Assembly: GCA_020443325.1 (NCBI GenBank) | Contig: JAGRIK010000308.1 | Coordinates: 1-60,887, forward strand | From: Halioglobus sp. | GTDB taxonomy: Bacteria > Pseudomonadota > Gammaproteobacteria > Pseudomonadales > Halieaceae | Length of the DNA: 60,887 bases | Reading direction: 5' to 3' | Shown: positions 6,003 to 53,053 of the stretch, in pieces | Numbering within the stretch: position 1 is the first letter of the stretch | Layout: every line of letters starts with the position of its first letter | Notes under the pieces: model-generated | What the model saw: only the letters and a program-made list of their open reading frames with translations | The model's database searches: none | Told to the model about the DNA's origin: nothing | Translations under genes and position numbers: made by a program

Positions 6003-6054
6003 GTCATTCCTCTCCAGTTGTGGGGGCGTCGCGAGGACACCACGGCGTCACTCT

Positions 6055-6972: not shown

Positions 6973-7013
6973 TACTGAAATCCCCTAACTTGAAAAATTA
7001 ATCTTCCGCCCGA

Positions 7014-7671: not shown

Positions 7672-7715
7672 GTATTTTTTGGGCGGCGGCTCAGTGTGAA
7701 ATCTGCCGAATGTGG

Positions 7716-7833
7716 GTGCCTGAGAGAAAGTGCTATGGGCGGGACCGTGTGGTGACAGGACGTCACCACCCGAGCCTGCACATGGATGTGCGCTTTTTGG
7801 CGTGTCCCGCCCATAGCGCTTTCTCTCAGGCAC
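7716..7833. repeat. Long palindromic element E1
   Basis: Two 30-base arms (7716-7745 and 7804-7833) pair at 29 of 30 positions, the one exception being a G-T pair. The 58-base centre contains two smaller hairpins: GTGGTGAC/GTCACCAC, and GCACAT-GG-ATGTGC at about 7778-7791. Outside the arms, about 25 further bases on each side still match at roughly 17 positions in inverted orientation, suggesting an older and longer inverted duplication. The inner ends of the arms (GGGAC/GTCCC) and the CATGGATG hairpin recur in element E2 near 40.4 kb, while the arm sequences themselves do not. Confidence 0.8.
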
Positions 7834-7884
7834 TCATACTCGGCGTATTTCCGACTTAACGAAGACAATATTGCCGTGCGCGGC

Positions 7885-10317: not shown

Positions 10318-10455
10318 CAGCCTGCACTCTTATTATGTCGTTATAGACCAGAGGCTACCGCAGATGTGCGCAATTAAATAGAGCCCTGCAAAAATAGATT
10401 TCGGGAGGACAGGGCGAACAGCAAAGACCGTCCGCCCGGCGTGGAGCGACGGTAC

Positions 10456-11709: not shown

Positions 11710-11766
11710 TCTCCTGGTCCGTTAATGTATTGGTTGCCTGTAAGTTCTGTGGGGCCGCTCACCGGA

Positions 11767-13473
11767 TTACTGGCGTGCAGCGAGTTCGTTCGCGTAGTCG
11801 GCCTTGATCTGGCGCTTGAAGATTTTGCCCGAGGCGATACGCGGCAGTTGCTCGGTACGAAACCAGATGTGCGCCGGTATCTTGAATGACGCCAGATGTG
11901 CAGACAGATAGGTGCGCAACTCCTCCGCCGTCATCGTGACGCCGTCGCGCAGCACCACGGCAGCGCCCACGATCTCGCCGAGCCGCTCGTCCGGCAGACC
12001 GAAGACCGCGACCTCATGGATGCCCGGATGCGCATAAATCGCCGCTTCCACTTCCAGGCAACTGATGTTTTCACCGCCGCGAATAATGATTTCCTTGATC
12101 CGGTCGACAATATAGACAAAGCCGTCCTCGTCCAGGTAGGCCACGTCACCCGTGTGAAACCAGCCGTCGACAAACGCCTCGGCGGTGGCCTCGGGCTTGT
12201 TCCAGTAGCCGAGAATATTGGCGGGCGACTTGATACACAGCTCGCCGCGTTCGCCTGCCGGCAGTGTGCGGCCGTCCTCGCCTATCACGCGAAATTCGGT
12301 CACAGCGGGTACCACCCGGCCCGAACTGTCGGGCCGCGCGACGTAGAAAGCACCGGCATTCACTGAACCCAATGCGTTGGTTTCGGTCAGCCCGTAGCCG
12401 ATACCCGGCGCGGAGTTTTTGAACGTGCCGCTGATTTTCTTCACCTGCTCGGGCGGGCGGGCCGCGCCGCCGGCCATGATCTCTGTCAGGGATGAGATAT
12501 CCCTGTCGGTGTTTTCCGCTGCGGCCTGTAACTCGGCCGACATCGTAGGCACGCCGTTGAACCAGGTGATGCGCTCTTTCTCGATCAAGCGCAGGGCTTC
12601 CTGCGCATCCCATTTGTGCATGATCACCATCTTGCGCCCCACTACCAGCGACAACAGGAACGCCGAGTGGCTGGCAGTACAGTGAAAGAGCGGTATCGTC
12701 ACCAGAGCCGAAGGGGGCAGACCCGCGTCCCGGACTTGCTGGGTCGCCGCGACCTTGGTGGCAACCCCCAGGCACATCCAGCTGTAAAGGGCCGACAATA
12801 CCCCCCGGTGCGATGACAGTGCGCCCTTGGGATGCCCGGTGGAGCCTGAGGTATACATGATGGTGGCATGGTCATCCAGGGCCACATCGACCGCCGGCAT
12901 CGAGGCGCCGGTGTACGCCTGCAGCAACTCAGAAAACGGGGTGTGTGCCACCGGCAAACCGATGCAATCGTCAATAGAGATCAGCTGTAAACTGTGTTTT
13001 TCGACAATAGGCACCAGCCGCTCCACCCGCGTGCGATCCGCCACGACAACGGTCGCGCCGCTGTCGGCAAAGCCGTAGTCCAACTCCTCGGTCGTCCACC
13101 AGGCATTCATCGGGACCGCCACGGCGCCAACGGAGGTCACTGCAATAAATGCCATCAGCCACTGCGGGTTGTTCCGACTGAGGATGGCCACCCGATCACC
13201 CTTGCCAATGCCGTAACGCTGCACCAATGCAGCGCCGAATTCACAGCTGTGCTGGTAGCCCTGGGCGAAGGTGTAGCGCTCATCCAGATAGACCGCGAAG
13301 TCCTTGTCGGCGTGCTGCTGCATAACCAGGAAATACTGCCCCAGGCTGGCGGGCAAGCCGGCAAAGTTGCGGTACTCCACACCGTTCAAATCAACCGTGT
13401 TGAGCTCAAAGGGTTGCCCTGGCGCAGTGAGGCCGGCAACCACTTCGTCAAACTTTTTAATGTCCGGGTTCAT
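11767..13473 (-). CDS. AMP-dependent acyl-CoA synthetase/ligase
   Basis: A 568-residue class I adenylate-forming enzyme that activates a carboxylic acid with ATP and CoA. The P-loop-like YTSGSTGHPKG is at 207-217, GYGLTETNA follows in the adenylate-binding region, GWFHTGDVAYLDEDGF and DRIKEIIIRGGENIS mark the hinge between domains, and PRIASGKIFKRQ near the C-terminus carries the catalytic Lys at about 550. Third gene of the operon, 29 bases after the preceding dehydrogenase. It probably loads the operon's substrate onto CoA. The acid is not identifiable from sequence; a fatty, branched or steroid-side-chain acid is plausible. Confidence 0.93.
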   Translation of the reverse strand: MNPDIKKFDEVVAGLTAPGQPFELNTVDLNGVEYRNFAGLPASLGQYFLVMQQHADKDFAVYLDERYTFAQGYQHSCEFGAALVQRYGIGKGDRVAILSRNNPQWLMAFIAVTSVGAVAVPMNAWWTTEELDYGFADSGATVVVADRTRVERLVPIVEKHSLQLISIDDCIGLPVAHTPFSELLQAYTGASMPAVDVALDDHATIMYTSGSTGHPKGALSSHRGVLSALYSWMCLGVATKVAATQQVRDAGLPPSALVTIPLFHCTASHSAFLLSLVVGRKMVIMHKWDAQEALRLIEKERITWFNGVPTMSAELQAAAENTDRDISSLTEIMAGGAARPPEQVKKISGTFKNSAPGIGYGLTETNALGSVNAGAFYVARPDSSGRVVPAVTEFRVIGEDGRTLPAGERGELCIKSPANILGYWNKPEATAEAFVDGWFHTGDVAYLDEDGFVYIVDRIKEIIIRGGENISCLEVEAAIYAHPGIHEVAVFGLPDERLGEIVGAAVVLRDGVTMTAEELRTYLSAHLASFKIPAHIWFRTEQLPRIASGKIFKRQIKADYANELAARQ

Positions 13474-13502
13474 TATTTTTTTTGGTCCCTATCTGTGGTC
13501 TC

Positions 13503-14642
13503 TCAGAAGCCGTTAAGACGGGCAAAGCGATCGAGGTGATAGTTGTAATCGCCAAAAATATGTTGGACCACGCGAGCGCGCTTGATAAAGAAGCCAATCT
13601 CGTGCTCGTCCGTCATCCCGATGCCACCGTGCATCTGGATGGCCTCACTGGTCACGCGCTGCGCCACTTCACACAACTTGGCCTTGGCGGCGCTGGCCTG
13701 CAATGCGAGGTCCGCCTCGCCGTCATCGATGGCATGCAGGGCCTGCAACACGATGGAACGCGCCAGTTCCAGTTCGGCAAACATCTCTGCAGCGCGATGC
13801 TGTAACCCCTGGAAGGAACCAATCACACGACCAAACTGCTTGCGCTCCTTCAGGTAGGCATTGGTGCGCTCAAACGCCTCCGTCGATAGCCCGAGCAATT
13901 CTGCAGCGAAACCGATACTGGCAACATCCAGCGCGCGACTGAGCCCGTCCCACGCGGCACCGGCCTCTCCCAACAGGTTTCCGGCAGGCACCCGGACGCC
14001 GTCAAGGACAAGTGCGCCCGCGCTGCGCGAATCCACCATACTGCGCGGTGCTATCGCCAGGCCGGTGGCGTCTGCATCCACCAGAAACGCGCTCAAACCC
14101 TGCTCGTCGCCAGGCTCGCCAGCCGTGCGCGCGATCACGACAAAAGTATCCGCCGCACTGGCATCCAGTACCAGCAGTTTCTCCCCGTTGAGCACATAGT
14201 CATCGCCCTGCGCCTGTGCACGCAGCGAACTTTGCAGCGGTGCGTGGTGTGCGCCCTCCTGCAGGGCCAGGCTCACCAATTTATCACCCGCCGCAATCGC
14301 CGCCAGCAACTGCTCCTTCTGCTGCGCGCTGCCGAGTTCGCCAATCACCGAGGCAGCTACCAGCACGGTGGATTGCAGCGGGCTCGCACTCAGATTGCGG
14401 CCGGCCTGTTCCAGCACCAGGCCGAGCCCGGTGTAACCGTAACCCAGGCCGCCAAATGCCTCCGGGATAGCGATACCCGCCCAACCCATCTCGACCATCT
14501 CGCGCCACACCTCATCGCTGAAGCCGCGCTCGCTGCCACTATCGCGCAGCGCCCGCAACTGGGCGACGCCCGCCTTTTCCGCCAGAAACCCAGCGGCGGA
14601 CTCTTTGAGCATCACCTGCTCTTCATTCAATACCAATGCCAT
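13503..14642 (-). CDS. Acyl-CoA dehydrogenase subunit (FadE29-like)
   Basis: A 379-residue acyl-CoA dehydrogenase family protein. The C-terminal part reads EAIQMHGGIGMTDEHEIGFFIKRARVVQHIFGD and lacks the IYEGT-type loop with the catalytic Glu. Adjacent to another dehydrogenase (28-base gap) that carries a different C-terminus, it matches the pattern of actinobacterial heterotetramers such as FadE28-FadE29 and FadE26-FadE27, in which the partners share FAD and active sites. That assembly is inferred from synteny and motif content. Second gene of the operon. Confidence 0.88.
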   Translation of the reverse strand: MALVLNEEQVMLKESAAGFLAEKAGVAQLRALRDSGSERGFSDEVWREMVEMGWAGIAIPEAFGGLGYGYTGLGLVLEQAGRNLSASPLQSTVLVAASVIGELGSAQQKEQLLAAIAAGDKLVSLALQEGAHHAPLQSSLRAQAQGDDYVLNGEKLLVLDASAADTFVVIARTAGEPGDEQGLSAFLVDADATGLAIAPRSMVDSRSAGALVLDGVRVPAGNLLGEAGAAWDGLSRALDVASIGFAAELLGLSTEAFERTNAYLKERKQFGRVIGSFQGLQHRAAEMFAELELARSIVLQALHAIDDGEADLALQASAAKAKLCEVAQRVTSEAIQMHGGIGMTDEHEIGFFIKRARVVQHIFGDYNYHLDRFARLNGF

Positions 14643-14670
14643 GATTCGTTATCCTTTGTCTCTATATGCG

Positions 14671-15852
14671 CTACGCGTCTGGGAGCCCAAGCACCCGCTT
14701 GGCGATAATATTCAATTGCACCTCGGATGTGCCGCCTTCGATAGAGTTGCCCTTGGAGCGCAGCCAGTCACGGCTGAGCGCACCGCCGTTATACTCCTCG
14801 CCGTCCCACCCCAGCGCCTGCTCACCGCACACCGCCAGGTTGAGCTCATTGCGACGCTTGTTCAGCTCCGTACCGTAGTATTTGAATATGGAAGAGGCGG
14901 CACCCAGGCCCTGTCCCGCTTTGGCCTCGTCACCCACCCGCTTCATGGTCGCGCCAAATACCATCGTATCCAGCTGGTACTGCGCGATGTTCTGGCGCAG
15001 CACGGAATTCGCCAGGCGTCCGGTGGCGTCTGCACCGATAGTTTCCAGCGCCACCTGCCCGACGGACTTCTTCGGTGCCGCACCGAACCCCGAGATCATC
15101 TCGCGTTCATGTGTCAGGAGGTATTTGGCGATGGTCCAACCGTTGCCCGCCTCACCGACCAGGTTCTTCTTGTCCGCTATCGCGTTGTCGAAAAAGGTTT
15201 CACAGAAAGGTGAGTTGCCACTGATGAGTTTGATCGGGCGCACCGTAACGCCGGGCTGGTCCATATCAAACAGCACGAAGCTGATGCCCTCATGCTTGCT
15301 ACCGGAGTTATCTGTGCGCACGAGGCAAAAAATCCAGTCGGCTTTATCCGCGTAGGAGGTCCAGATTTTCTGGCCGTTGATCACGTAGTGGTCGCCCTTG
15401 TCTTCTGCCTTGGTGGCCAGGCTCGCGAGATCGGAACCGGCATTGGGTTCGGAGTAACCCTGGCACCAGCGGATTTCGCCGCGCGCAATTTTCGGCAGGT
15501 GCTCCAGCTTTTGCTCCTCGCTCCCGAAGTGCAGCAGCGCCGGCCCCAGCATTGATATCCCGAAACTGTCCAGCGCACGCCTGGCGCCTATCCGGGCCAT
15601 TTCCTGGGAGAGTATCTTCACCTCCTCAGAATTGAGACCGCCGCCGCCATAGGCTTTTGGCCAGTGCGGAACGGTCCAGCCGCGCTCCGCCATCCGGTCG
15701 CACCAGAGTTTTTGATCCGGGTGGTCGATCTCGGGATTGCGGCCACCGTTATAGAAATCGTCGAAACCCCTGACAGGTACACGCATGGATTCGGGGCAAT
15801 TTTTCTCCAGCCAGGCTCGCGTGTCCTGGCGGAACTGTTCAAGGTCGCTCAC
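14671..15852 (-). CDS. Acyl-CoA dehydrogenase subunit (FadE28-like)
   Basis: A 393-residue acyl-CoA dehydrogenase, first gene of the operon. It has GYSEPNAGSDLAS in the flavin/substrate loop, NGQKIWTSYADKADW in the beta domain and IEGGTSEVQLNIIAKRVLGLP at the C-terminus, the usual end of the FadE26/28 type. The start codon is GTG with an AAGGGG ribosome site 9-10 bases upstream. The leader from the predicted promoter at 15980-16008 is about 120 bases. It probably forms a mixed oligomer with the dehydrogenase encoded next, acting on the CoA ester made by the operon's ligase. Confidence 0.9.
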   Translation of the reverse strand: MSDLEQFRQDTRAWLEKNCPESMRVPVRGFDDFYNGGRNPEIDHPDQKLWCDRMAERGWTVPHWPKAYGGGGLNSEEVKILSQEMARIGARRALDSFGISMLGPALLHFGSEEQKLEHLPKIARGEIRWCQGYSEPNAGSDLASLATKAEDKGDHYVINGQKIWTSYADKADWIFCLVRTDNSGSKHEGISFVLFDMDQPGVTVRPIKLISGNSPFCETFFDNAIADKKNLVGEAGNGWTIAKYLLTHEREMISGFGAAPKKSVGQVALETIGADATGRLANSVLRQNIAQYQLDTMVFGATMKRVGDEAKAGQGLGAASSIFKYYGTELNKRRNELNLAVCGEQALGWDGEEYNGGALSRDWLRSKGNSIEGGTSEVQLNIIAKRVLGLPDA

Positions 15853-15979
15853 GGGGTTACCCCTTATATCAGTTGAATGGCTGTCGAGCGGTCATGGAAC
15901 CGCCGGAAGAATACCGCTTCAGTATAGACACCGCAGGCGAACCCGCTTTTGCAGGCCCGCCGCCGGTAAACCGGATTTG

Positions 15980-16008
15980 AACATACAGTATGTTTTAATT
16001 ACGTTCAA
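15980..16008 (-). promoter_or_regulatory. Sigma70-type promoter with palindromic operator (site 2)
   Basis: On the minus strand: TTGAAC (-35, 16003-16008), a 17-base spacer and TATGTT (-10, 15980-15985). The palindrome AACATAC-A-GTATGTT covers the -10. It matches the site at 7643-7671 over almost all of the core and in the TTCAAGTAT that covers the -35, whereas the spacer differs. It drives the ligase/dehydrogenase operon beginning at 15852. Confidence 0.75.
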
Positions 16009-16048
16009 GTATCTCCAGCGCGTGGACTGCCCGCACCATCCTCCGGCC

Positions 16049-16078
16049 AAAAAAAAGGGGCTGCCAACGGCAACCCCC
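16049..16078 (-). terminator. Rho-independent terminator after TonB receptor gene
   Basis: On the minus strand GGGGTTGCC-GTT-GGCAGCCCC is followed by eight T residues. It lies 34 bases past the stop of the interrupted TonB receptor gene and insulates the promoter at 15980-16008 from it. Confidence 0.88.
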
Positions 16079-16112
16079 TTTATCAAACCCCGGCCTGTGC
16101 GGTGTTACACGC

Positions 16113-18407
16113 CTAGAACTCGAAGATGACCTCGCCACCCCACATGGCTGGCGCCAGGTAGGTGGTGGCCGTCGCGCCAATCAGGTAATTGGCCGTGTCC
16201 TCGTCGGTAATGTTTTTACCCCACACCGCGAACTGCCAGTTGTGGCCACCCATTTCCACGTCAGCCAGGCTGACCCGCGCATTGAGCAGGCCGTAGCTTT
16301 CCACCTCAACTTTGCCAAACTCCGTGTTAGCCAACGCAAACTGGTCGTCCTGCCAGGAGTAATCCAGGTGGAAACGGACCTCGCCGATGCTTACCGGCAG
16401 GTCGTAGTCGGCGGTAATGGCGTAGGCATTTTTGGGCGCCCATACCAGTTCCGTCGTATCGGTGTGGTCAGTGCCGTCGGGGAAATCGACATTGCTGAAA
16501 TCGTAGTCGAGGTACGAGTAACTCAGCCCGACCAGGAACTGATCGGTGACCGCTGCCTGCAGGTCAATCTCCACGCCGTAGATATCGGCATCGCCCGAGT
16601 TGAAGGATTCCACCAGCTGCGGATTGTCCACCGGATCGGGCAGGTAGTCGAGGATGATATCGCTGACACGCATATAGTAGGCGGCACCATTGAGGCGAAC
16701 GCGCTGATCCATGAATTCCGATTTCCAGCCCAGTTCGCCGGATGTCAGGTCTTCACTGTCGAACGGTTTGTTGAAATCCACGCCGTTGCGGCTTGAACCG
16801 CCGGAACGAAACCCGGTGGACACCTTGGCGTAGGTCGAAAACTCGTCGGTCCAGCTGTAGTCCGCGATGGCGGTGTAATCAAACCTGTCCTTGCTGGAGT
16901 CGGTGCGCCCGGGGGCGTAGGAATTCGCATACCAGCCATCGTTGGTGCGACCGGCCTCGCGCTGGTCATCGGTGTAACGCAGCCCGAGGGTCAGGTCCAG
17001 CTTGTCCTGCAGGATATTCGGCGTGTAGGTCGCCTGGCCGTAGCCAGCCCAGGATTCGACATCGGTACTGACCTTGTATTCACCCAGGTAGTTGGGGAAG
17101 GTCGCGTTGGCGAAATCGGTACAGATAGGCCCCGGCCGGGTGCCATCGGAACAGGGCATCCCGGTGATAAAATCAAATGCGTAGACACCCAGTTGGTCGA
17201 CACTGGCGCGATCCAGGTACTGGCGCTCCTTCTGGTCTCCGTTTTCATTGAAATAGTAAAGCCCGCCCACGTACTCCAGGCGCTCCGCACTGCCCAGCAG
17301 TTACAACTCCTGCGACCACTGGTCCTGCTGCGTCTTGGTATACACTTCCAGGGTACCGGCGCCGCCGAAAGAATTGGCAAAGTTCTGCGAAATCTCGTCG
17401 TCGAAATCCCGGTAGCCGGTAATGGACTTCAGCGTCAGGTCATCGCTGAGTTCGTAACTGACAGTGAGGTTATGCCCGTTCACTTCCGTCGTGGAGTCCG
17501 GCAGATAGAAGGCTGTCTGCGCGCCACCGAGGGGTGAGCGTGTGTGCTTCAACCGATCCTGGAAACTGTTGGTGATAGGCACGCCGGCAAGCGTGGTACC
17601 GCCGGTGGGACCGCTGTACTGGAAATAGGGCGGTGAGGACGTCACATCCGAGTAATCATAGCTGTAATCCACCAGCAGCTTCTCAACACCGTCGAAACGC
17701 AGCGCGGCGCGGTAGCCTTCCGTCTCCTTCTTGTAATAATCGGTGTAATCATAGCCGGGCACCTCATTGGCTCCCTCATTCTGCACCCAGCCGTCACGAT
17801 CGGAGAAGGCCGCTGTCAACTTGGCCTTGAACCCCGACGCATCGGGCAGGTTCAAGTGGCTCACCGAACGCCAGCTGTCGTAATTCCCCGCACTCAGGGT
17901 CTGCTTGAAGCCAAACTCCCCGGTGGGTTTCGCATTGATGAAATTGATGGCGCCGGCCATGGTGTTTCGACCGTACAGGGTACCCTGCGGGCCGCGCAGG
18001 ATCTCCACGCGCTCCAGCTCAGACAGGTCGGATAACAAACCGGTTGAGCGCGCCGCGTAAACCCCATCGTAATACAGGCCAACGGTGGGATCCTTGGTAA
18101 TCACGATAGAATCCGCGTTGCCTATACCGCGAATGAAAAGCGCGAGGTTGTTCGTGGCATTGGGATAGGCAGGCATCTGCAGGTACGGCGATGCCGCGCC
18201 GACATCCTTGGCATCAATCAGCCCCATCGATTCGATGGCCTCACTGTTGTATGCGCTTATCGCAATCGGCGTGTCCTGCAGCGATTCCGCGCGTTTCTGT
18301 GCCGTGACTACGACTTCTTCCAGTTGTGCCAGTGCACTGTTCGCTGCCAGGCCTGATGCCAGCATTACAGCGAGGGGAAGGGATTTGCGGGTGATGTTAT
18401 AAGACAT
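16113..18407 (-). pseudogene. TonB-dependent receptor interrupted by one in-frame TAA
   Basis: The two open frames 17301-18407 and 16113-17270 are in the same frame and separated only by a TAA at 17301-17303. Joined, they give one receptor of about 764 residues. It has a signal peptide to about residue 26 (NSALAQ), a TonB box-like EEVVVTAQKR, a plug (RVEILRGPQGTLYGRNTMAGAI), a barrel and a C-terminal aromatic residue (VIFEF). The break falls in the common motif QWSQEL-x-LLGSAERLEY, where CAA or CAG (Gln) would be expected, so a single C-to-T change explains it. Both halves keep good coding character and a terminator follows, so the lesion is recent, a sequencing error, or read through. As read, the product would end inside the barrel and be non-functional. 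Confidence 0.85.
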
Positions 18408-43427: not shown

Positions 43428-46055
43428 TTATGCAACGTGGATAATATTGTCTGCCAGGCCGGAGGCGTTATACACCATGTCTACCCTGGCCCGTGCGATC
43501 CCGGAATCCATGTCCCAGTTCGCTCCGCTGGAACTCATTCCAACATCGCAACCAAGCAGTTTGGTTACCAGGCCATCCACGTCATTGACCTCAAGGCGTC
43601 CTGGCCCAAAACTCGCAAGGGGTGGCACCATGGACTGCCAGTCTCTCCAGTGGCCATCACCTTTCACAGCCAGCACCTGGGCGTGCCAGGCCACGACATC
43701 GTGCGGCAGTTCAACCACATGCGGAAACACCCGTCCATGCGCGGGCAGGATCGCGTGCTGGGCGGCGAGGACGGCGTCCAGTGCGCTATCGTCAGGCACA
43801 CCACACTCAGCAATCATGAACCGGCGCAATTCCTCAAAAACGAAGGCCCAGCTGTAAGGCGGCGCCATAAGCCCGGTACCAAAATTCACCAGCGTATTCA
43901 GCAGCGGCCATACATGCTCCTTCCCACCGGGACCTGTTTTCGACAACAGCGACCGGTAAAACTGCATCTCCGTCATGTCGACCTGCTGGCGCACAAAGCG
44001 CGAGCACAATCGCATCACGCCGAAGGTGTCGAGAACCTGGTAAACATCCCTGAGCGCCATCATCACGGCCAGGTCATCCCTGGTATAGGTTCTGGTGGAA
44101 ACCAGAACCGGCATTTTTCCGGGCCCGAGTTCCGTACCGGTCTTGATCTGGTGCTCCTCCCGATAATCAGGGCTGTTCATCGGGCTGTTGACCAACAGGG
44201 TGGTGTGATTGATACGCGCCTGTATATCCCGGTCAATGCACTGCTGCAGGTCTTCGATAAAACTTTCAAGCGTCGCGCCCGGCAACCCCATCATCAATTC
44301 GACAGATAACTGGAGCTTGGAATTACGCATTTCATTCGCCAATGCGTCGTACTTCTCAACCTTGATGTTGGAGCGGTTGATGACATTGAGCGTGCTTTCG
44401 TCCATCGTCTGCAGCGACAATACGCCCTGCGCCAGAATGCCGGCATCGGCCAGTACCTTGATGATTTTCTGCAGGTACTTGGTGGAGTTTTTGGCATAAC
44501 TCCCACCGAAAGTCTCGGGAAAGCCCGTTTTGGTCTTCAGTTCGGCAACCCGCTCTGCGATAGCGACATCTCTTTCAAAAACACCAAAATTGGCGTCGCA
44601 CTGCGAAATCGAGGCGACTTTCATCTCGGAACACCACTCCAACTCGCCGAACACCCGATCCAGGTCAAACTTGCGAATCTTACTGGTGGTGGCGCTGCCC
44701 CAGTCGCAAAAGGTACAGCCGTAGGGGCAGCCGCGATTGGTTTCCAGCGTCGCATGCATACGCGGCACCCCGCGATACGCATCGAACAACCCCGTCAGGT
44801 AAGGCGAAGGGATAGTATCGAGATCCGCGATGCGCTCACGATCAGGGTTGCGAATAATCTCACCGCGATAGCGGTAGGTGATGCCCGGAACGTCCCGTAA
44901 TACAGAGAGATCAGGATTTTTCTGGCCTATGACGCTGCGCAGCTTATCCAGCGTGTCCGCAGCAGTGGCCTCACCTTCACCACGAATAATGATGTCGACA
45001 TGTGGGAATTTGGCAAAATAGTCTTCCGCATCCTGGACATACTTTGGCGTGTCCGGACCGCCGTGTATGGTGATGCTGTCCGGGCTCAGGCGCTTGACTG
45101 TCTCGGACACCGCGATGCTGTTCCCATGTGTCCACAGATAGTTTGAAAACAGGTAAATCGCAGGGTTGGCAGTGAAACCTGCCGTTCGCTCATCATCCCA
45201 TAACCAGTCGAGGCGAAAATCGTAGAACTCATCCAGGCAACCGCCGTTATAGGCCTTGCTGTAGGCCATAACCAGACCCAGTGCCGCAGGAATGGCATCC
45301 CCGAACGTTACGGGTATCACCTTCGTTCGATACACGCCCGTTTGTTGTCGACGCAGCGCTTCCTTTTCATCCAGAGCGACTGCCTGTCGGGCAATATTCG
45401 CTTTCAGGGTCTGCCGGTAACTCAGGGGCTGCTGCAGGGTGGCTGCGGGTTGCTCGGCAAGTGTCAGCAAGCCCGCAGCGTAAAGCTGTGACAGTATCTG
45501 GACAAGCCGGGGCTTTTCCAGAGCGCGGTGATTCAGCAGTTTACTCTGGCGCTCCAGTGCGTCACCAAGGGTAGTCGGCGCCGCAAACTCCCCGACAGCC
45601 AGCAGTTCCGCCGCGGTAAGCTCCAGTGACAAATGGCCGTCGTGATCCACCAACTGGAACGCGTCTCTGCCGATTCTGAGGGTCTGCGGAACTTTCAATG
45701 CAATCAAGCCCTTATCAAAATCAGGGGGATTGGACATCGCGAGCGTTCGGGGCGGGAGCACCCTGGTTGATGGGATGGCGTGCTCCCGACGTCGCAGGCG
45801 CGCACGCCGGGTGAGTGCCTTTATGAAGTTTTCGATACGTGTCCTGGGAGACCCCGTTTCACCGGCGACGACTTCAGCTACCTCCGCCTCATCCGTGTAG
45901 TTGCCGTGATGCAATGCCGAGAGTGTCGCCAGCTCGTGAAACTGGAGTTTGTATGGCGCAGCTCCATAAGGGGTAAACAGTTGCACACCCTCTGGCCCCA
46001 GCGTCACTATGCATTTAGTGGTTAACCTTAGCGGGTGGGCGGCGATTGTATCCAT
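43428..46055 (-). CDS. B12-binding-type radical SAM protein with PqqD-like N-terminus (copy 1)
   Basis: An 875-residue protein. Residues about 1-90 and 115-195 each follow the winged-helix pattern of PqqD/RiPP recognition elements (short beta strands, then a LxLLxxLx-type helix run). About 225-400 is a cobalamin-binding-like domain (GDAIPAALGLVMAYSKAYNG, SITIHGGPDTPKY, IIIRGEGEATA). The radical SAM cluster motif CPYGCTFCDWG is at about 441-451. The C-terminal domain ends in NIIHVA. The paralogue at 46292 has the same layout. Such enzymes usually modify a peptide or small molecule; the substrate and product are unknown. A TATGAT -10-like hexamer lies 71 bases upstream of the start. Confidence 0.85.
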   Translation of the reverse strand: MDTIAAHPLRLTTKCIVTLGPEGVQLFTPYGAAPYKLQFHELATLSALHHGNYTDEAEVAEVVAGETGSPRTRIENFIKALTRRARLRRREHAIPSTRVLPPRTLAMSNPPDFDKGLIALKVPQTLRIGRDAFQLVDHDGHLSLELTAAELLAVGEFAAPTTLGDALERQSKLLNHRALEKPRLVQILSQLYAAGLLTLAEQPAATLQQPLSYRQTLKANIARQAVALDEKEALRRQQTGVYRTKVIPVTFGDAIPAALGLVMAYSKAYNGGCLDEFYDFRLDWLWDDERTAGFTANPAIYLFSNYLWTHGNSIAVSETVKRLSPDSITIHGGPDTPKYVQDAEDYFAKFPHVDIIIRGEGEATAADTLDKLRSVIGQKNPDLSVLRDVPGITYRYRGEIIRNPDRERIADLDTIPSPYLTGLFDAYRGVPRMHATLETNRGCPYGCTFCDWGSATTSKIRKFDLDRVFGELEWCSEMKVASISQCDANFGVFERDVAIAERVAELKTKTGFPETFGGSYAKNSTKYLQKIIKVLADAGILAQGVLSLQTMDESTLNVINRSNIKVEKYDALANEMRNSKLQLSVELMMGLPGATLESFIEDLQQCIDRDIQARINHTTLLVNSPMNSPDYREEHQIKTGTELGPGKMPVLVSTRTYTRDDLAVMMALRDVYQVLDTFGVMRLCSRFVRQQVDMTEMQFYRSLLSKTGPGGKEHVWPLLNTLVNFGTGLMAPPYSWAFVFEELRRFMIAECGVPDDSALDAVLAAQHAILPAHGRVFPHVVELPHDVVAWHAQVLAVKGDGHWRDWQSMVPPLASFGPGRLEVNDVDGLVTKLLGCDVGMSSSGANWDMDSGIARARVDMVYNASGLADNIIHVA

Positions 46056-46291: not shown

Positions 46292-48919
46292 TCACGCCAC
46301 GTGGATAATATCGTCGTCCACAAGGGCCCCCGCATGGAATGCAACAGGCACCGTGGCGCGCGAAATACCGGAGTCCATCTCCCAGTTCGCACCACCGGAA
46401 GCAATCATTACGTCACAGCCAAGCAGGGTAGTCGCCGCGTTGTTCACGTCGTTCACCTCCAGGCTACCGGGCCCAAAACTGGCCAGGGGGGGCACTACCT
46501 TCTGCCAGTCTCGCCAGTGTCCCGCACCCTTGGTCGCCAACATCTGGGCATGCCAGGCCACCACATCGTGCGGCAGGTCGATCGCATACGGATATACCCG
46601 GCCGTGCGCGGGAAGCATTGCATGCTGGGCGGCGAGGATTGCATCGAGTGCGCTATCGTCCGGCACACCACACTCCTTGACCAGGAATTCGCGCAACTCT
46701 GCGAATACCAATGCCCAGCTGTAGGGCGGAGCCATCAGATCGTGCCCATAATTCACCAGTGTATTCAGCATGGGCCACACGTGCTGTCGGCCATCGGCAC
46801 CCGCTTTGCTGAGCAGTGTCTGGTAGAACGCCATTTCTGTCATGCCCACTTGCTGGCGAATAAACCGTGTGGTTAACCGCATCACGCCGAAGGTGTCGAG
46901 GAGCAGGTAAAGGCTCCGCAGTACCAGCATCATTTCCAGGTCGTCCCTGGTATACGTTTTGGTGGAGACCAGAATAGGCATTTTGCCCGGCCCCAGTTCC
47001 GTACCGGTCTTGATCTGGTGCTCCTCCCGGTAATCGGGGCTGTTCATGGGGCTATTGACCAACAGGGTGGTGTGATTGATGCGCGCCTGTATATCCCGGT
47101 CAATGCACTGCTGCAGGTCTTCGATAAAACTTTCAAGCGTTGCACCCGGCAGGCCCATCATCAATTCGACAGTCAACTGAAGATTGGAATTGCGCATTTC
47201 GTTCGCAAGCGCATCATACTTCTCGACCTTGATATTGGAGCGCTTGATAACGCTCAGCGTATCTGCATCCATGGTCTGCAGCGACAAAACGCCCTGCGCC
47301 AGGATGCCGGCATCAGCCAGGATTTTGATAATTTTCTGCAGGTACTTGGTGGAGTTCTTGGCGTAACTGCCGCCGAAGGTTTCCGGGAAACCGGTGGTGG
47401 TTTTCAGGTTGGCGACGCATTCTGCAATAGCGACGTCTCTTTCAAAAATACCAAAGTTGGCATCGGCCTGGGAAACCGACTGGACTTTCATCTCAGAACA
47501 CCACGCCAATTCGCCGAACACCCGGTCCAGGTCAAATTTACGAATCTTGCTCGTGGTGGCACTACCCCAGTCGCAGAAGGTACAGCCGTAGGGGCAGCCG
47601 CGATTGGTTTCGAGCGTCGCATGCATACGCGGCACGCCGCGATAAGCATCAAACAGCCCGGTCAGGTACGGTGAAGGGATCGTGTCGAGATCCATGATCC
47701 GTTCCCGATCCGGGTTCCGGATTATTTCTCCGCGATGGCGATAGGTAATACCCGGAACGCTCTGCAGGACGGAGAGATCGGGATCTTTCTGGCCGATAAC
47801 ACTGCGCAGTTTATCCAGCGTATCAGCAGCGCTGGCTTCCCCTTCACCGCGAATAATAATATCGACGTGAGGAAACTTGGCGAAGTAGTCCTCTGCGTCC
47901 TGGGCATATTTCGGCGTGTCCGGGCCGCCGTGTATGGTGATGCTGTCCGGGCTCAGGCGTTTTACAGTCTCGGACACCGCAATGCTGTTTCCATGCGTCC
48001 ACAAGTAGTTTGAGAACAGGTAAATTGCCGGTTTGGCAGTGAAACTTGCTGTGCGCTCATCATCCCACAGCCAGTCCAGGCGAAAATCGTAGAACTCTTC
48101 CAGACACCCGCCGTTATACGCCTTGCTGTAAGCGATAACCAAACCCAGCGCCGCGGGAATGGCATCTCCGAAGGCGACGGGTATCACCTTGGTTCGAGTG
48201 ACGCCTGTCTGCTGCTGACGCAGCGCTTCTTTTTCATCCTGCTCAGCGGCTTGCCTCGCGATGTTCGCTTTTAAACTCTGCCTGTATCCCTGGACCTTGG
48301 CCTTGTTAACGGTGGGCTCTGCAATGGACGCCAGGCCGGCCACACACAGGTGTGCCAGAATCTCCTTGAGCCTCGCGTCTTCCAGCGCATGGCCCTCGAG
48401 CAAGACCCGTTGATTCTGCAGCCCATCGGCAAGGCTGGTCGGTTTCACAAACTGCGCGACTGCAATCAACTCTGCCGCAGTGAGACCGAGCAGCAGATGA
48501 CCATCGTGATCCACCAGCTGAAATGTACCTTGCCCAACGCGCAGGGTTTGCGGGACTTTGAGGACGATTAAACCCTTATCAAGCTCGGGGGTATCGACGC
48601 CGGGAAGCGCTTTCGGTGGGTGCAACCTGGCGAGCGGGATGCCATGCTGCCGACGTCGCAGGCGTCCGCGATTCACCAGCGACTTGATGAATTTTTCAAT
48701 AACCGCTTTCGTTGCACCCGTTTTGCTGGCGACGGCGGCTGCCACGTCCGCGCCATCGGTGTAGCTGCCATTCTGCAATTCGAATAATGTGACTAACTCG
48801 TGAAACTGGAGCGGGACAACTGCCGCTGCATAAGGGGCATGCAGATGGACACCCTCTGACCCTAATTTCACTATGCATTTCGTCGTTAGCCTTAGTGGAT
48901 GGGCTTCGATTTTATCCAT
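46292..48919 (-). CDS. B12-binding-type radical SAM protein with PqqD-like N-terminus (copy 2)
   Basis: An 875-residue paralogue of the protein encoded at 43428-46055, in tandem and of equal length. The same order is seen: two PqqD-like winged-helix segments, a cobalamin-binding-like domain (SITIHGGPDTPKYAQD, IIIRGEGEASAA), the radical SAM motif CPYGCTFCDWG at about 441-451, and a common C-terminal domain. Long stretches of DNA are nearly identical between the copies, for example around 44160-44260 and 47020-47130. Its upstream region shares the GGGCGTATGATA-like element (48997-49002 on the minus strand). The duplication looks fairly recent; the N-terminal segments have diverged most. Confidence 0.85.
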   Translation of the reverse strand: MDKIEAHPLRLTTKCIVKLGSEGVHLHAPYAAAVVPLQFHELVTLFELQNGSYTDGADVAAAVASKTGATKAVIEKFIKSLVNRGRLRRRQHGIPLARLHPPKALPGVDTPELDKGLIVLKVPQTLRVGQGTFQLVDHDGHLLLGLTAAELIAVAQFVKPTSLADGLQNQRVLLEGHALEDARLKEILAHLCVAGLASIAEPTVNKAKVQGYRQSLKANIARQAAEQDEKEALRQQQTGVTRTKVIPVAFGDAIPAALGLVIAYSKAYNGGCLEEFYDFRLDWLWDDERTASFTAKPAIYLFSNYLWTHGNSIAVSETVKRLSPDSITIHGGPDTPKYAQDAEDYFAKFPHVDIIIRGEGEASAADTLDKLRSVIGQKDPDLSVLQSVPGITYRHRGEIIRNPDRERIMDLDTIPSPYLTGLFDAYRGVPRMHATLETNRGCPYGCTFCDWGSATTSKIRKFDLDRVFGELAWCSEMKVQSVSQADANFGIFERDVAIAECVANLKTTTGFPETFGGSYAKNSTKYLQKIIKILADAGILAQGVLSLQTMDADTLSVIKRSNIKVEKYDALANEMRNSNLQLTVELMMGLPGATLESFIEDLQQCIDRDIQARINHTTLLVNSPMNSPDYREEHQIKTGTELGPGKMPILVSTKTYTRDDLEMMLVLRSLYLLLDTFGVMRLTTRFIRQQVGMTEMAFYQTLLSKAGADGRQHVWPMLNTLVNYGHDLMAPPYSWALVFAELREFLVKECGVPDDSALDAILAAQHAMLPAHGRVYPYAIDLPHDVVAWHAQMLATKGAGHWRDWQKVVPPLASFGPGSLEVNDVNNAATTLLGCDVMIASGGANWEMDSGISRATVPVAFHAGALVDDDIIHVA

Positions 48920-49201
48920 TGTAAGTTACTCAAATCTAAAACGTATTTATTCCGGTAGGAACTACCGTCGTGTTATTGCCGCTCAATTCACCTTATATCA
49001 TACGCCCTCATTTGACTACGAGGAAAGAACCGTACGTAAATCCAGACTGTATTTTTCGACAACTTACGACTCAGTCCACAAAAACAGTCACTGGAGCGGG
49101 CCAATGCCGGTTCTCTGCCTGTCATGGACACAGGACGGGGGGCCGATGATAACATTGCCGCCTGTCACAGCCTCGCTGTGGCGTACTTACCAGGGAATCG
49201 A

Positions 49202-52200
49202 ATGATGGAAGAACCATGGTTATTGGGTATCGACCTGGGTGGCAGTGGAGCTCGCTGTGTACTGGTAAACCGCTCATCAGGGGCGTTTGTGACAGCATCC
49301 GGGCACTGGGAGTTTGCTGTAGCGCCCGGCACCTTTGGCACCGGTTACGATATTGACCTGGAACTCGTGTGGGACGTTGTCGGACAGGTTTGCCGCGACG
49401 TATTGCAGGCAGCCGAAATCGACCCTGCGTTCGTAACCGGCATTGCAGTCTCTGCAATGCGCTTCAGCACCGTGGTGCTCGACGCTGACGGCGAGAAACT
49501 CCTTGCGGTCGATAACCGGGATGCGCGAGCAGTAGGAGAGTATTTCGAGATCGCTGAAAAAATGGGTCCGGAACTGCTGCAGGAGACGGGCTCCTGGCCG
49601 CTGCCCCTGCACGCTTCGGCGCGCTTGCAGTGGCTCAGGAATCAACAGCCGGACGCTTTCAACCGGGTACATACTGTCTTCGGCCTGGGCGAATGGCTTA
49701 ACTACAGGCTCAGTGGTGTGCGCGCCATCGACGCTACGCAGGCCAGCGCCACCGGCCTGTTCCACCTCAGCAACAGGGAATGGTGCTGGCGTCTAATCGA
49801 TGAACTCGGCCTCCCGCGAGACATCTTCCCGCCATTGACAGACTCAGGCCGCGCGCTGGGAGCACTCAGCGATCGGGCCGCAGCGCATCTCGGACTACAG
49901 ACCGGTACGACGATCGCGATGGGCGGCGCCGATACGCAGTGCAGCCTGCTGGGCGGCGGTGTCATCGCGCCAGGCGACGTTGCGGTTGTCGCTGGCACCA
50001 CCGCACCAGTGCAGGTCGTACTGGCGCAACCGGCCTGGGATACCACGGGCAAGTCCCTGGGTACGTATCACATCGTACCGGATCGCTGGGTGCTGGAAAG
50101 CAATGGTGGCGGTATGGGCTATTCAATCAGCCTGATGGCCAGAATGCTGTTTCCCGATGCACCCGAACCGGAATTGCGACTCCTGGCAGAGGCTGCGCAA
50201 TCAGAGCCCGGCGCAGCGGGCATGCTCTCAACCATGGGTGCCGAGGTTATGGACATGCGCGCGCCGTCCATGCCAATGGGACACCTCACACTGAGCCACA
50301 TGGCCTGCGGTGGAGATGCCGAACCGCGTCGTCACCTGGCACGCGCGCTGGCAGAAGGCTGCGCCTGCGGCGTCCGCGCCAATCTCGAGCAGTTGGACAC
50401 ACTGCTCGCGCTCCACTCCCTACAAAGCAATACCGACTCCATCACGCTCTGCGGCGGCCTGTCACGCAGCGATGTGTTCGGCCAGTTACTGGCGAATATC
50501 ACTGATCGCGAGGTGTTGGTACCGCAATCCCACCAGGGCTCCGCGCTGGGCGCCGCCATTTGCGCAGGCGTGGCGAGTGGCGACTTTGCCAGCTTTGCCG
50601 GCGCCTGCGAGGTGCTTTGCCATCTGCGCCGTCGCTTTGCGGCGCAGCAGGAAAACGCTGTATTAAACGGGCAACTGTTTGCGACATGGTCACGGTTTCG
50701 CGAACAGGCCGAAACCTCCACTGTGCCCATCGCAGTCGGCCACCTGTTGCCGCGCGTGTTGAAAGAACCCGTAAACACAGATACCGCCGGTGCCGGGCCA
50801 GAAACCGGCCTGCAGGCGCTGGTATCCGCCGCATTTGATTCCGAGTCGCTGGCCAGATTGCGCGCTCATATGGCGGTGCAGTACGCGAGCTTTCGCGAGG
50901 TCAAACGCCTGCTCACCGGCCCGGACCTGGTGAAAGCCCTGCAAGGCGTACAGGTTTTTGTGACTGAGGTGGATGTGGTCGATATCAATGCGCTGCGCCA
51001 GTTGCCGGATTTACGCGTGATAGCTGCCTGCCGGGGTGATGCGGTCAATGTCGATGTGGAAGCCTGCACGGCCTTTGGTATTCCCGTGCTGTTTGCGCCG
51101 GGGCGCAACGCGGTCGCGGTGGCCGACCTCGCCGTTGCCTTCATGATCAACCTCGCTCGCAAGCTGCCCGCTGCATCACAATTCCTGCGCAATGAGGATT
51201 GCACGGCCGGCAATATGGGCAAGATGGGGCAGGCCTTCAGCCAATTGCAGGGTCGCGAGCTGTGGCGCAAAACCATCGGCCTGGTGGGGCTGGGCGCGGT
51301 CGGGCGCGCGGTTGCCAAACGCCTTGCCGGTTTCGATGTGGAGATTCTGGTGGCCGACCCATTCATCACACCCGAACAGGCGGCGCTGGCAGGGTGTCGC
51401 CTGACAGATCTTGACACCCTGTTACAACGCAGCGACGTCGTCAGCCTGCACGCCGCGGTCACACCTGAAACGACCGGAATGATAGGCGCGGCAGAGTTTG
51501 GCAAAATGAAACCCGGCGCATTTTTTATCAATACCGCGCGCGCCGCGCTGATCGACGAGCAAGCACTGGTCGATGCGCTGGAAAGCGGCCACCTCGGTGG
51601 CGCCGCGCTCGATACGTTCGCAGTAGAACCTCCCGGCTTCGATCACCCGCTGGTACAGCACCCTGCGGTTATCACCACACCCCACTCAGCGGGAAACACG
51701 GTTGAAGTTGCAGACCACCAGGGCGAAAGCGTGTCCACCGCATTGCTGCAGCTGTTGCGCGGCGAGACACCGAACAATGTACTCAACCCGCAAACCCTGG
51801 CGACTTTCAGCTGGCGGGGAGCCAAACCTCAGCCTGACGAGGCGGAGCTGGCCAGGCTCGGCAGCAGGAGCGGCCCGGCGGTTACCGACCTGCAGCGCAA
51901 TGCTACTGCTACGAGAGGCCCGGGCAACGGAGGTCAGGCACCGGCAAATCCCAGGCCGGTGGCTGCGCCAGCCGATGTAATTGCGAAGATGACCGCGATA
52001 CTGGAAAAATTCTGTGCCGGCATGGCGGCAGATCCGACACTCATCGCCTTCAGTGCTGACCAGGACGTCACCCTGCAATTCACTGCCCACGACCTGGGCC
52101 TGATGTTCTACCTGGGCCTGCGACAAGGCTGTGTCGCCAGTGCACTGGGGCCAGCGCCGGACACCGCAGACGTACAGCTACAGATGCGCGGCGAAATACT

Positions 52201-53053
52201 CGACGGCATGTTCAACGGCACGGTGGATGCCATGGAGTGTGCGATGAACGGTGAACTCTCCTTTATGGGTGACGCCGCCAAGGCCATGACGCTGCAACAT
52301 CTCCAGGGGGACATGGAACGTATCTATCGCGCGGCGAGAAATGCAGTGGGCGACCCGGGCAACCTGCGTGGCTTGCCACCGGCGGGTGAAGTCACAGCGG
52401 CAACGCAGGATGTCAGCGGCAATGATATTCGCGATGAACTGGTGGCGATCATGGAGGAGCTTTACGCGTCCGGCGTGATCACCGCGACCGGCGGCAATAT
52501 CAGTGTGCGCGTACCCGGTACCGGCAGCGACGTCTGGATTACGCCAAGCCGCCTGTTCAAAGGTGACTTGCGCCCGGAACTGATGGTGCGCATCAACCTG
52601 GACGGCGAGAGTCTCGTCGCCGGGGCCCGCTCACCCTCCAGTGAGTGGTGCATGCACACCCGTATACTGGAACGAAAAACTGAGGCCAATGCCGTGATCC
52701 ACGCGCACGCTCCCAATGCAACAATCCTGGCCAACTGTGGGATACCCTTTCTGCCCATATCGACGGAAGCAGCGTTCTTCGGCAATATCCCTCGGGTACC
52801 CTTCCTGATGCCGGGAACGCCGGAGCTGGCCGATGCGGTGGCCGATGCAATGGACAACGAGTGGGCCGCGCTGATGGTTAACCACGGTATTATCGTGGCC
52901 GGTCGCAACCTGCGCCGCGCGGCTGATATGGTGGAGATTATTGAGCGCTCCGCCGAGGTCATACTGGGTTGTTACGCCGTCGGCAAGGAACCCCCGGTGC
53001 TGCCGCCGGATGCTGTAGGCTACTTCCGCAAAATGGGCGATATCGTTGCCTGA
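49202..53053 (+). CDS. Sugar kinase/2-hydroxyacid dehydrogenase/SCP2/class II aldolase fusion
   Basis: A 1283-residue protein with four units. Residues about 5-495 are an FGGY carbohydrate kinase (GIDLGGSGARCVLV at the start, GGADTQCSLLGGGV at about 241, the closing GGLSRSDVFGQLLA region). About 555-885 are a D-2-hydroxyacid dehydrogenase (GLGAVGRA at about 695, NTARAALIDEQAL, VEPPGFDHPLV and TTPHSAGN with the catalytic Arg, Glu and His). About 928-1050 are an SCP2 sterol-carrier-like domain. About 1073-1265 are a class II aldolase (GGNISV, SSEW-Glu, HAHAP and NHG zinc ligands). It starts at ATG 49202. The series would oxidise, phosphorylate and cleave a polyol acid, as four separate proteins do in tetronate catabolism. 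Substrate unknown. Confidence 0.9.
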   Translation: MMEEPWLLGIDLGGSGARCVLVNRSSGAFVTASGHWEFAVAPGTFGTGYDIDLELVWDVVGQVCRDVLQAAEIDPAFVTGIAVSAMRFSTVVLDADGEKLLAVDNRDARAVGEYFEIAEKMGPELLQETGSWPLPLHASARLQWLRNQQPDAFNRVHTVFGLGEWLNYRLSGVRAIDATQASATGLFHLSNREWCWRLIDELGLPRDIFPPLTDSGRALGALSDRAAAHLGLQTGTTIAMGGADTQCSLLGGGVIAPGDVAVVAGTTAPVQVVLAQPAWDTTGKSLGTYHIVPDRWVLESNGGGMGYSISLMARMLFPDAPEPELRLLAEAAQSEPGAAGMLSTMGAEVMDMRAPSMPMGHLTLSHMACGGDAEPRRHLARALAEGCACGVRANLEQLDTLLALHSLQSNTDSITLCGGLSRSDVFGQLLANITDREVLVPQSHQGSALGAAICAGVASGDFASFAGACEVLCHLRRRFAAQQENAVLNGQLFATWSRFREQAETSTVPIAVGHLLPRVLKEPVNTDTAGAGPETGLQALVSAAFDSESLARLRAHMAVQYASFREVKRLLTGPDLVKALQGVQVFVTEVDVVDINALRQLPDLRVIAACRGDAVNVDVEACTAFGIPVLFAPGRNAVAVADLAVAFMINLARKLPAASQFLRNEDCTAGNMGKMGQAFSQLQGRELWRKTIGLVGLGAVGRAVAKRLAGFDVEILVADPFITPEQAALAGCRLTDLDTLLQRSDVVSLHAAVTPETTGMIGAAEFGKMKPGAFFINTARAALIDEQALVDALESGHLGGAALDTFAVEPPGFDHPLVQHPAVITTPHSAGNTVEVADHQGESVSTALLQLLRGETPNNVLNPQTLATFSWRGAKPQPDEAELARLGSRSGPAVTDLQRNATATRGPGNGGQAPANPRPVAAPADVIAKMTAILEKFCAGMAADPTLIAFSADQDVTLQFTAHDLGLMFYLGLRQGCVASALGPAPDTADVQLQMRGEILDGMFNGTVDAMECAMNGELSFMGDAAKAMTLQHLQGDMERIYRAARNAVGDPGNLRGLPPAGEVTAATQDVSGNDIRDELVAIMEELYASGVITATGGNISVRVPGTGSDVWITPSRLFKGDLRPELMVRINLDGESLVAGARSPSSEWCMHTRILERKTEANAVIHAHAPNATILANCGIPFLPISTEAAFFGNIPRVPFLMPGTPELADAVADAMDNEWAALMVNHGIIVAGRNLRRAADMVEIIERSAEVILGCYAVGKEPPVLPPDAVGYFRKMGDIVA

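Follow-up and report, generated by a model that had tools for sequence, protein, structure and literature searches.

A single-chain fusion of an FGGY kinase, a 2-hydroxyacid dehydrogenase, an SCP2 module and a class II aldolase in Halioglobus, with a possible role on hydrophobic polyols

The window, a stretch of 60,887 nucleotides from Halioglobus sp. (GenBank assembly GCA_020443325.1, contig JAGRIK010000308.1), encodes one protein in which an FGGY carbohydrate kinase, a D-isomer-specific 2-hydroxyacid dehydrogenase, an SCP2-like module and a class II aldolase are joined. Our leading but tentative explanation, held at somewhat less than even confidence, is that three catalytic centres and one carrier act as a catabolic line whose target is the hydroxyl-rich portion of a hydrophobic molecule of steroid or terpenoid type. 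Phosphorylating, oxidising and carbon-bond-splitting enzymes in one chain are an unusual layout, the presence of SCP2 inside such a chain suggests sugar-type chemistry on a lipid, and no description of this fusion was found in the open-access literature searched. The features of the gene are as follows.

49192..49196, + strand: AGGGA, Shine-Dalgarno-like as read from the sequence, 5 nt before the ATG at 49202 and 8 nt before the ATG at 49205
49202..53053, + strand: full coding region of the fusion with its four domains (1283 aa and a stop codon)
49220..50575, + strand: FGGY carbohydrate kinase domain, residues 7-458 (Pfam, invariant residues)
50837..51787, + strand: D-isomer-specific 2-hydroxyacid dehydrogenase domain, residues 546-862 (Pfam, invariant residues)
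51812..51961, + strand: variable linker, residues 871-920 (dN/dS, pLDDT; much of it at low model confidence)
51962..52348, + strand: SCP2-like module, residues about 921-1049, Pfam match 957-1034 (Pfam, AlphaFold2, Foldseek)
52418..53050, + strand: class II aldolase domain, residues 1073-1283, Pfam match 1079-1254 (Pfam, residues, alignment to 6btd and FucA)

Translation of the frame gives no internal stop. The mechanical ORF start is at 49124, and homologues start at the equivalent of 49202 or 49205. An opposite-strand gene was considered and rejected, as the overlapping minus-strand ORFs reach at most 221 aa and the single minus frame read has many stops. A local scan for sigma-70 promoters near the gene found 0, with 1.9 expected. 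The preliminary description of this DNA had claimed one uninterrupted frame joining the four families, and that stands: Pfam places all four domains above their cut-offs in the window protein and in the 5 of 5 orthologues scanned, and in the domain scans and the alignment no domain is absent and the catalytic residues are not lost in most homologues.

Fourteen public loci were found, 11 with the whole fusion and 3 with the part that the contig allows, all of them free of stops. Of 18 genomes sampled from one Halioglobus-like genus, 15 have a match, and of 122 others from its family, 0; two lineages outside the family also match. These searches scored short patterns or the best candidates per genome, and weak relatives may escape them. 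An 879-residue frame in locus L045 was rejected as a second fusion, having dehydrogenase domains only. Across six pairs, dN/dS is 0.06-0.21 for SCP2, 0.06-0.12 for the aldolase, 0.06-0.19 for the dehydrogenase and 0.14-0.33 for the kinase, so every domain is under purifying selection; the linkers range over 0.10-0.49 in the same number of pairs, with one value not computable. That an assembly error or frameshift has joined separate genes, or that the fusion is decaying, is hardly credible, because homologues carry the same fusion: it is whole in 11 other records and in G115, the homologous loci lack stops, and the domains are under selection. No evidence in favour of such an artefact turned up.

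By sequence, each catalytic domain belongs to its family. For the kinase, FGGY_N scores 140.6 bits against a gathering score of 28.8 and FGGY_C 60.4 against 27, and residues D11, R87, D107, D244 and G265-T266-T267 do not vary in any row that covers them (16 rows, 3 of them partial, here and for the other domains). We take D11, D244 and the GTT at 265-267 to be the catalytic Asp and the ATP-binding motifs of FGGY kinases. The dehydrogenase scores 190.6 bits for 2-Hacid_dh_C (gathering score 25.1) and 44.9 for 2-Hacid_dh (24.6), with G696, G698, G701, D719, R780, E809 and H828 invariant, presumably the Rossmann GxGxxG and the Arg-Glu-His catalytic set. Aldolase_II scores 153.6 bits against 22.2, with N1099, S1116, S1146, S1147, E1148, H1167, H1169 and H1228 invariant; E1148 and the three His we take to be the metal site. 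Narrower memberships were tried and rejected by curated or model cut-offs: autoinducer-2 kinase (NF008187) at 239.8 bits against 528, phosphoglycerate dehydrogenase (TIGR01327) at 232.6 against 454, L-fuculose-phosphate aldolase (FucA) at 103.4 against 264, and 3-oxo-tetronate 4-phosphate decarboxylase (NF043034) at 89.6 against 250. The last of these, together with the absence of a DUF1537 domain from the Pfam scan of the protein, speaks against the tetronate degradation that had been suggested earlier.

The nearest relatives of these domains bring in the main alternative, which we consider a real if less probable one: a soluble trio of kinase, dehydrogenase and FucA- or DrdA-like aldolase for a sugar or deoxy-sugar has been fused, and SCP2 merely spaces or dimerises the protein. 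The closest solved kinase is the autoinducer-2 kinase LsrK (5ya0, E = 2.4 × 10−51), the substrates of the nearest kinase relatives are presumably small polyols or sugars, and the aldolase is nearest to 6btd/FucA, with 6btd/6btg its closest solved relative. Unfused genes of the three families do occur together elsewhere, as trios or pairs, as previously proposed. In Enterococcus raffinosus (L040) a dehydrogenase-kinase-aldolase set adjoins S-methyl-5-thioribose kinase, its isomerase and an iron alcohol dehydrogenase, in Klebsiella (L043) the unfused genes come with a sugar ABC transporter, and there is a further unfused set in Pseudosulfitobacter (L041); nor does the window show any evidently related gene adjoining the fusion on the side scanned, upstream, where the gene is radical SAM. 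Against this, residues that would face the substrate have changed. At position 88, next to R87, all 15 rows that extend that far carry an aromatic residue, whereas LsrK and the L040 kinase have Glu there and the haloarchaeal and Klebsiella kinases also differ from the fusion. The aldolase retains the metal-ligand His, catalytic Glu and phosphate-site Ser/Asn of 6btd/6btg and FucA but, apart from being fused, differs from them in an aldehyde-side segment [IV]S[TS][ED]AAFF, in which AAFF (1190-1193) is invariant within the fusion; neither AAFF nor the aromatic residue is seen in the unfused sequences aligned. No recurrent sugar transporter was found among the fusion's neighbours in the loci examined, the recurrent ones being of steroid or terpenoid type, and SCP2, tandem-duplicated in L019, is under constraint similar to that on the catalytic domains.

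A further reading, which we regard as improbable, is salvage of 5-deoxypentoses from radical SAM chemistry by a variant of the DHAP shunt. It draws on 6btd/6btg, which we take, by an inferred link, to be the DrdA of PMC6079011, and on two genes upstream of the fusion in the window.

43428-46055 and 46292-48919: two look-alike genes of radical SAM type; a scan of the second identified it as radical SAM

The radical SAM family (F7) is, however, present in only 3 of 13 loci clustered, MtnK and MtnA domains, by which a drd/mtn-type shunt would be recognised, are absent from the fusion and from the neighbours scanned, and SCP2 and the steroid-type neighbours would be left unexplained. The word FGGY is likewise absent from the partial texts of the DHAP-shunt papers PMC6079011 and PMC10986504.

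SCP2 is the weakest Pfam match of the fusion, at 30.1 bits against a gathering score of 21.3, and is also above the cut-off in 5 of 5 orthologues scanned, the lowest at 23.1 bits. In the AlphaFold2 model the SCP2 core has block pLDDT values of 87-97, and Foldseek matches it to the SCP-2-like domain of human MFE-2 (1ikt) with TM 0.75 by target length, and also to C-terminal parts of alkylsulfatases. By Pfam and predicted fold, the region is an SCP2 module. A 749-residue model has pTM 0.36 and yields no domain arrangement or channel. The alignments behind the models leave out L012, L017, L021, L019 and L053, and the 749-residue one L011 as well. In MFE-2 and bacterial alkylsulfatases, too, an SCP2 module is attached to catalytic domains, and the fold can serve a structural role as well. 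The earlier suggestion that SCP2 points to a lipid-linked or hydrophobic substrate gains support from the modelled fold and from the steroid/terpenoid-type neighbours in related genomes.

Those neighbours were counted by tblastn, which replaced a simple ORF caller that had misread some high-GC neighbours; the whole window was covered, and L012 and L017, whose contigs (about 3.6 kb) have no flanks, were left out of the survey. A KshA-like Rieske gene is divergent from and adjoining the fusion in 8 of 14 loci. Its protein matches KshA 4qdc with E = 2.9 × 10−46, and the NCBIfam model that it fits best, 4beta-methylsterol monooxygenase, gives 69.6 of 600 bits. Downstream of the fusion, 7 of 14 loci have a CoA ligase like steroid-24-oyl-CoA synthetase, the best model for 5 of 5 ligases scanned (608-629 bits, against 342-364 for the next family, and below the curated cut-off of 750); L013:14331-16016, a different ligase (32% identical, best model PRK12583), is outside those five. 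PtmU3/DitZ-like genes are near the fusion in 6 of 14 loci, with a weak 24% match in L022 besides; PtmU3 is described in PMC10127204 as a diiron monooxygenase hydroxylating diterpenoid-CoA, and a reading of it as a thioesterase was dropped in view of this. L010 additionally has a thiolase-family gene and a ChsH2-like gene, and in L022 the fusion runs in one direction with acyl-CoA dehydrogenase genes, a PtmU3-family gene and an SDR gene. As to a steroid-catabolic cluster, the picture is mixed: the oxygenase and ligase recur in about half the loci with scores below NCBIfam cut-offs, and the window's own genome, about 90% complete, has no close copy of the Rieske gene (best 42% identity) or of the ligase. 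None of the cluster genes lies beside the fusion in 5 of 14 loci, and since the window's genome also has no close copy of these two, the fusion can work without them. Within the genus, the association of fusion and cluster falls short of significance (9 of 15 versus 0 of 3; p 0.21).

The neighbours also admit a different, unlikely role in ring or side-chain breakdown within steroid or terpenoid catabolism, where the aldolase would open a polyhydroxylated ring or take off a chain that the adjacent oxygenases have produced, with the kinase activating a hydroxyl for elimination. Two oxygenase-type families and CoA genes adjoin the fusion, and in L022 an APH-like kinase gene adjoins the acyl-CoA dehydrogenase genes. 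We know of no FGGY kinase acting on acyl-CoA, and this weighs against such a role, as does the persistence of the fusion without the oxygenases; the kept phosphate-site residues of the aldolase point instead to a phosphorylated, sugar-like fragment. The kinase precedent in lipid catabolism is that of ACAD10/11 with 4-hydroxyacyl-CoA, according to PMC11342911.

Our preferred explanation remains the catabolic line on a hydrophobic polyol. The domain set and the steroid/terpene-breakdown neighbours in several relatives suggest an undescribed way of trimming the water-soluble part from a greasy molecule. SCP2 would bind the greasy portion of the substrate, the FGGY domain with ATP would place a phosphate on a terminal hydroxyl, the dehydrogenase with NAD(H) would adjust the oxidation level of the neighbouring carbon, and the metal-dependent aldolase would make a retro-aldol C-C break, leaving a hydrophobic aldehyde and a small phosphorylated fragment of the dihydroxyacetone-phosphate kind. 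The aldehyde could then be turned into an acid and a CoA-thioester and enter acyl-CoA dehydrogenase chemistry; several relatives have genes for such steps nearby. The middle step is a poor fit, because 2-hydroxyacid dehydrogenases normally take 2-oxo or 2-hydroxy acids. We infer the activity of all three centres, the substrate, the order and direction of the reactions, and lipid binding. The "compact catabolic line" of the preliminary description is a fair reading, given a true fusion with its catalytic residues and unfused sets clustered elsewhere.

One candidate substrate, to which we give a very slim chance, is the polyol tail that bacterial hopanoids such as bacteriohopanetetrol carry. This tail is ribose-derived, so a scheme can be drawn in which C35 would be phosphorylated, C34 oxidised and C33-C32 cleaved by retro-aldol reaction to dihydroxyacetone phosphate and a C32 hopanoid aldehyde, which might go on through bishomohopanoic acid to the steroid-type CoA ligase and the oxygenases. 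C32 hopanoic acids occur in sediments, and the scheme, if true, would be a biological route to them; the partial text of PMC8537080 has nothing on biological hopanoid breakdown.

Among known systems, the unfused sets of L040, L041 and L043 have the same enzyme families side by side, with neighbours unlike those of the fusion. The L040 set has all three enzymes, with motifs in common, but as separate genes, at 22-32% identity and with no SCP2 match by BLASTP. The SCP2 folds of MFE-2 and of SCP2-bearing alkylsulfatases, among the best matches of the module, are attached to catalytic domains unrelated to those here. The fusion protein and its split domains are a compact, testable system. Proteobacterial steroid side-chain catabolism (Sal/Shy) shares with the fusion loci the related CoA ligase and, in L010, the thiolase-family and ChsH2-like genes, although no close copy of that ligase is present in the genome of the window and the Sal pathway, in the partial text of PMC12329534, has no kinase or class II aldolase. 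If the preferred explanation is true, these marine bacteria would trim hydroxylated steroid- or terpenoid-type molecules by phosphorylation and retro-aldol cleavage, distinct from the thiolase-type steroid aldolases.

The preliminary description had claimed a four-domain fusion in one uninterrupted frame, and this holds: all four domains match Pfam models above their gathering scores in a single open frame.

49202-53053, +, fusion coding sequence, a single frame of 1283 residues with zero internal stops
49192-49196, +, AGGGA, ahead of the start at 49202/49205
Residues 7-458, FGGY_N/C
Residues 546-862, 2-Hacid_dh and its NAD domain
Residues 957-1034, SCP2, 30.1 bits vs a gathering score of 21.3
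Residues 1079-1254, Aldolase_II

The longest mechanical ORF starts at 49124; the starts of homologues map to 49202/49205. Pfam finds the same domain set in all 5 scanned orthologues. The orthologue at 8001-12293 of L019, a Pseudomonadales genome, has two tandem SCP2 modules in the 1431 codons read.

A pattern scan of 84,980 species genomes yields 14 relatives, all open throughout: 11 whole fusions and 3 truncated at contig ends (L012, L017 and L021, the last stopping within the dehydrogenase). At E up to 1e-60, 15 of 140 family genomes match, some partially at contig ends; these comprise 15/18 of the window's genus and 0/122 of the remainder. The order sample gives 3/293 (E up to 1e-70), one of which, G156, the genome of L019, belongs to another family. 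In the class (274 genomes) and phylum (299) samples, at E up to 1e-50, the fusion is confined to the window's own genome, the other matches (2 and 8) being single-domain relatives. Loci outside the genus are L019 and L022 (Spongiibacteraceae). A midpoint-rooted tree of 16 rows has two clades, one of 12 rows including the window and the other of L015, L017, L019 and L022.

The residue alignment has 16 rows, three of them partial, and invariance was judged in the rows reaching each position. Invariant residues are D11, R87, D107 and D244 in the kinase; G696, G698, G701, D719, R780, E809 and H828 in the dehydrogenase; and N1099, S1116, S1146, S1147, E1148, H1167, H1169 and H1228 in the aldolase. 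For several of these the role is presumed. In six pairs, with synonymous distance near saturation in some, dN/dS is 0.14-0.33 for the kinase, 0.06-0.19 for the dehydrogenase, 0.06-0.21 for SCP2, 0.06-0.12 for the aldolase and 0.10-0.49 for the linkers (one linker value not computable). By these ranges, SCP2 is about as constrained as the enzyme domains. The AlphaFold2 core of the SCP2 region has block pLDDT 87-97, and the model's structural matches are human MFE-2 (its SCP-2-like domain, 1ikt), further SCP2 carriers and C-terminal parts of alkylsulfatases. The 749-residue model has pTM 0.36, so it does not give the arrangement of dehydrogenase, SCP2 and aldolase. That SCP2 is merely structural, in what would be a soluble sugar trio, we consider somewhat unlikely.

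The neighborhood was compared in 14 loci: the window, G115 (a fusion-bearing genome of the family sample) and 12 of the 14 pattern-scan relatives. A KshA-like Rieske gene adjoins the fusion divergently in 8, a CoA ligase lies 3' of it in 7 (the L021 contig stops short of that position), PtmU3/DitZ-like genes occur in 6 with an additional weak match in L022, and a VOC protein occurs in 4, once partially. When 13 loci are clustered, only ligase, PtmU3-like and Rieske families recur with the fusion in at least 5. KshA (4qdc, E = 2.9e-46) is the closest match of the Rieske protein, which has a KshA_C domain; its top NCBIfam model, 4beta-methylsterol monooxygenase, scores 69.6 of 600 bits. Steroid-24-oyl-CoA synthetase is the top model for 5/5 scanned ligases, at 608-629 bits vs a cut-off of 750. 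PtmU3 is a diiron monooxygenase acting on diterpenoid-CoA (PMC10127204). The L022 locus has acyl-CoA dehydrogenases, an amidohydrolase-family protein (top match 4dzi, PtmU3 second), an SDR and the fusion, all running in the same direction. L010 has a thiolase-family gene for which no model reaches its cut-off, the highest-scoring being acetyl-CoA acetyltransferase and lipid-transfer protein. A second gene in L010 has ChsH2 domains, and its sole NCBIfam match is a weak one to BbsA. Sal, which is related to thiolases and has a DUF35 partner, acts as a steroid side-chain aldolase (PMC12329534).

We tentatively propose that SCP2 would hold a hydrophobic steroid- or terpenoid-type molecule, on whose polyol portion kinase, dehydrogenase and aldolase would act in turn, freeing a DHAP-type fragment along with a hydrophobic aldehyde. 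Chemistry on a ring or side chain, with elimination driven by the kinase by analogy with ACAD10/11 (PMC11342911), seems unlikely.

Other genes are seen near the fusion. A gene amid the acyl-CoA dehydrogenase genes of L022 1-5657 has a weak APH-family kinase match, recalling ACAD10/11. Immediately ahead of the fusion and co-directional, L014 3691-7859 has an alpha/beta-hydrolase gene (weak matches) and a TonB-dependent receptor, with heme-type models scoring highest, below cut-off. RPE65/lignostilbene-dioxygenase-family genes lie within a few kilobases in L013, L021 and L053.

The window itself has these surroundings.

2572-18407, -, acyl-CoA catabolic gene set, >30 kb upstream of the fusion
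43428-46055 and 46292-48919, -, two look-alike tandem genes of 875 residues each

The first set has three acyl-CoA dehydrogenases, a CoA ligase (34% identity), thiolase, SDR, iron and zinc alcohol dehydrogenases and TonB receptors, with plug and barrel domains at 16113-18407 split over two adjacent ORFs. Two of the dehydrogenases are 53% and 60% identical to the L018 pair adjoining the fusion; the set tells little about the fusion because of its distance. The scan of the 46292-48919 gene gives radical SAM and, weakly, B12-binding. Both L009 and L018 have relatives of the tandem genes (family F7) close to the fusion.

Against a link to the cluster, no Rieske, ligase, PtmU3-like or VOC gene adjoins the fusion in 5/14 loci (window, L009, L014, L015, L019), a search of the whole window finds none beside it, and the window's genome yields no close copy of the Rieske gene (at least 68% identity) or ligase (E up to 1e-140). 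Such copies co-occur in the same 9/140 family genomes, with the fusion in 9/9. Fisher's p for co-occurrence is 1.1e-10 family-wide, confounded by genus, and 0.21 within the genus, and we regard order conservation as the better evidence for the link.

None of the three catalytic domains scores high enough to be assigned a named function. The kinase is nearest autoinducer-2 kinase LsrK (E = 2.4e-51; 239.8 vs 528), the dehydrogenase scores 232.6 vs 454 on the phosphoglycerate dehydrogenase model, and the aldolase 103.4 vs 264 on that for L-fuculose-phosphate aldolase. The nearest aldolase structures, 6btd/6btg (titled fuculose phosphate aldolase), we take to be DrdA, solved with DHAP according to PMC6079011. 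5-Deoxypentose salvage by the fusion is improbable, and so is the boldest reading, stripping of a hopanoid polyol tail, for which no result of this analysis shows a hopanoid link. The residue after R87 is aromatic in the fusion, at a position occupied by Glu in LsrK and in the Enterococcus kinase; neither this aromatic residue nor the AAFF of the aldolase's aldehyde-side segment occurs in the unfused sequences aligned.

All four parts belong to known families. The open-access literature searched, a scope outside which most subscription journals fall, holds no description of the four-part fusion with SCP2. Among 72,556 plasmid records, 2970 match the query, none covering 80% in a single place, and BLASTP finds SCP2 in 0/11 plasmid or unfused genome loci (L040-L043, L045-L051). 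Kinase, dehydrogenase and aldolase genes do exist side by side elsewhere. Klebsiella and Pseudosulfitobacter have related gene sets; the Pseudosulfitobacter plasmid (L041 4894-17384) has consecutive CoA-transferase, dehydrogenase, aldolase, FGGY kinase, acetolactate-synthase-like and molybdopterin genes. In Enterococcus raffinosus, dehydrogenase, kinase and aldolase are adjacent separate genes, 31, 22 and 32% identical to the fusion, adjoining S-methyl-5-thioribose kinase, its isomerase and an iron alcohol dehydrogenase.

L040 (Enterococcus raffinosus plasmid), 3632-12664, dehydrogenase, FGGY kinase and aldolase with the S-methyl-5-thioribose genes, iron alcohol dehydrogenase and a transporter-like gene

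This set is possibly an extended DHAP-shunt operon.
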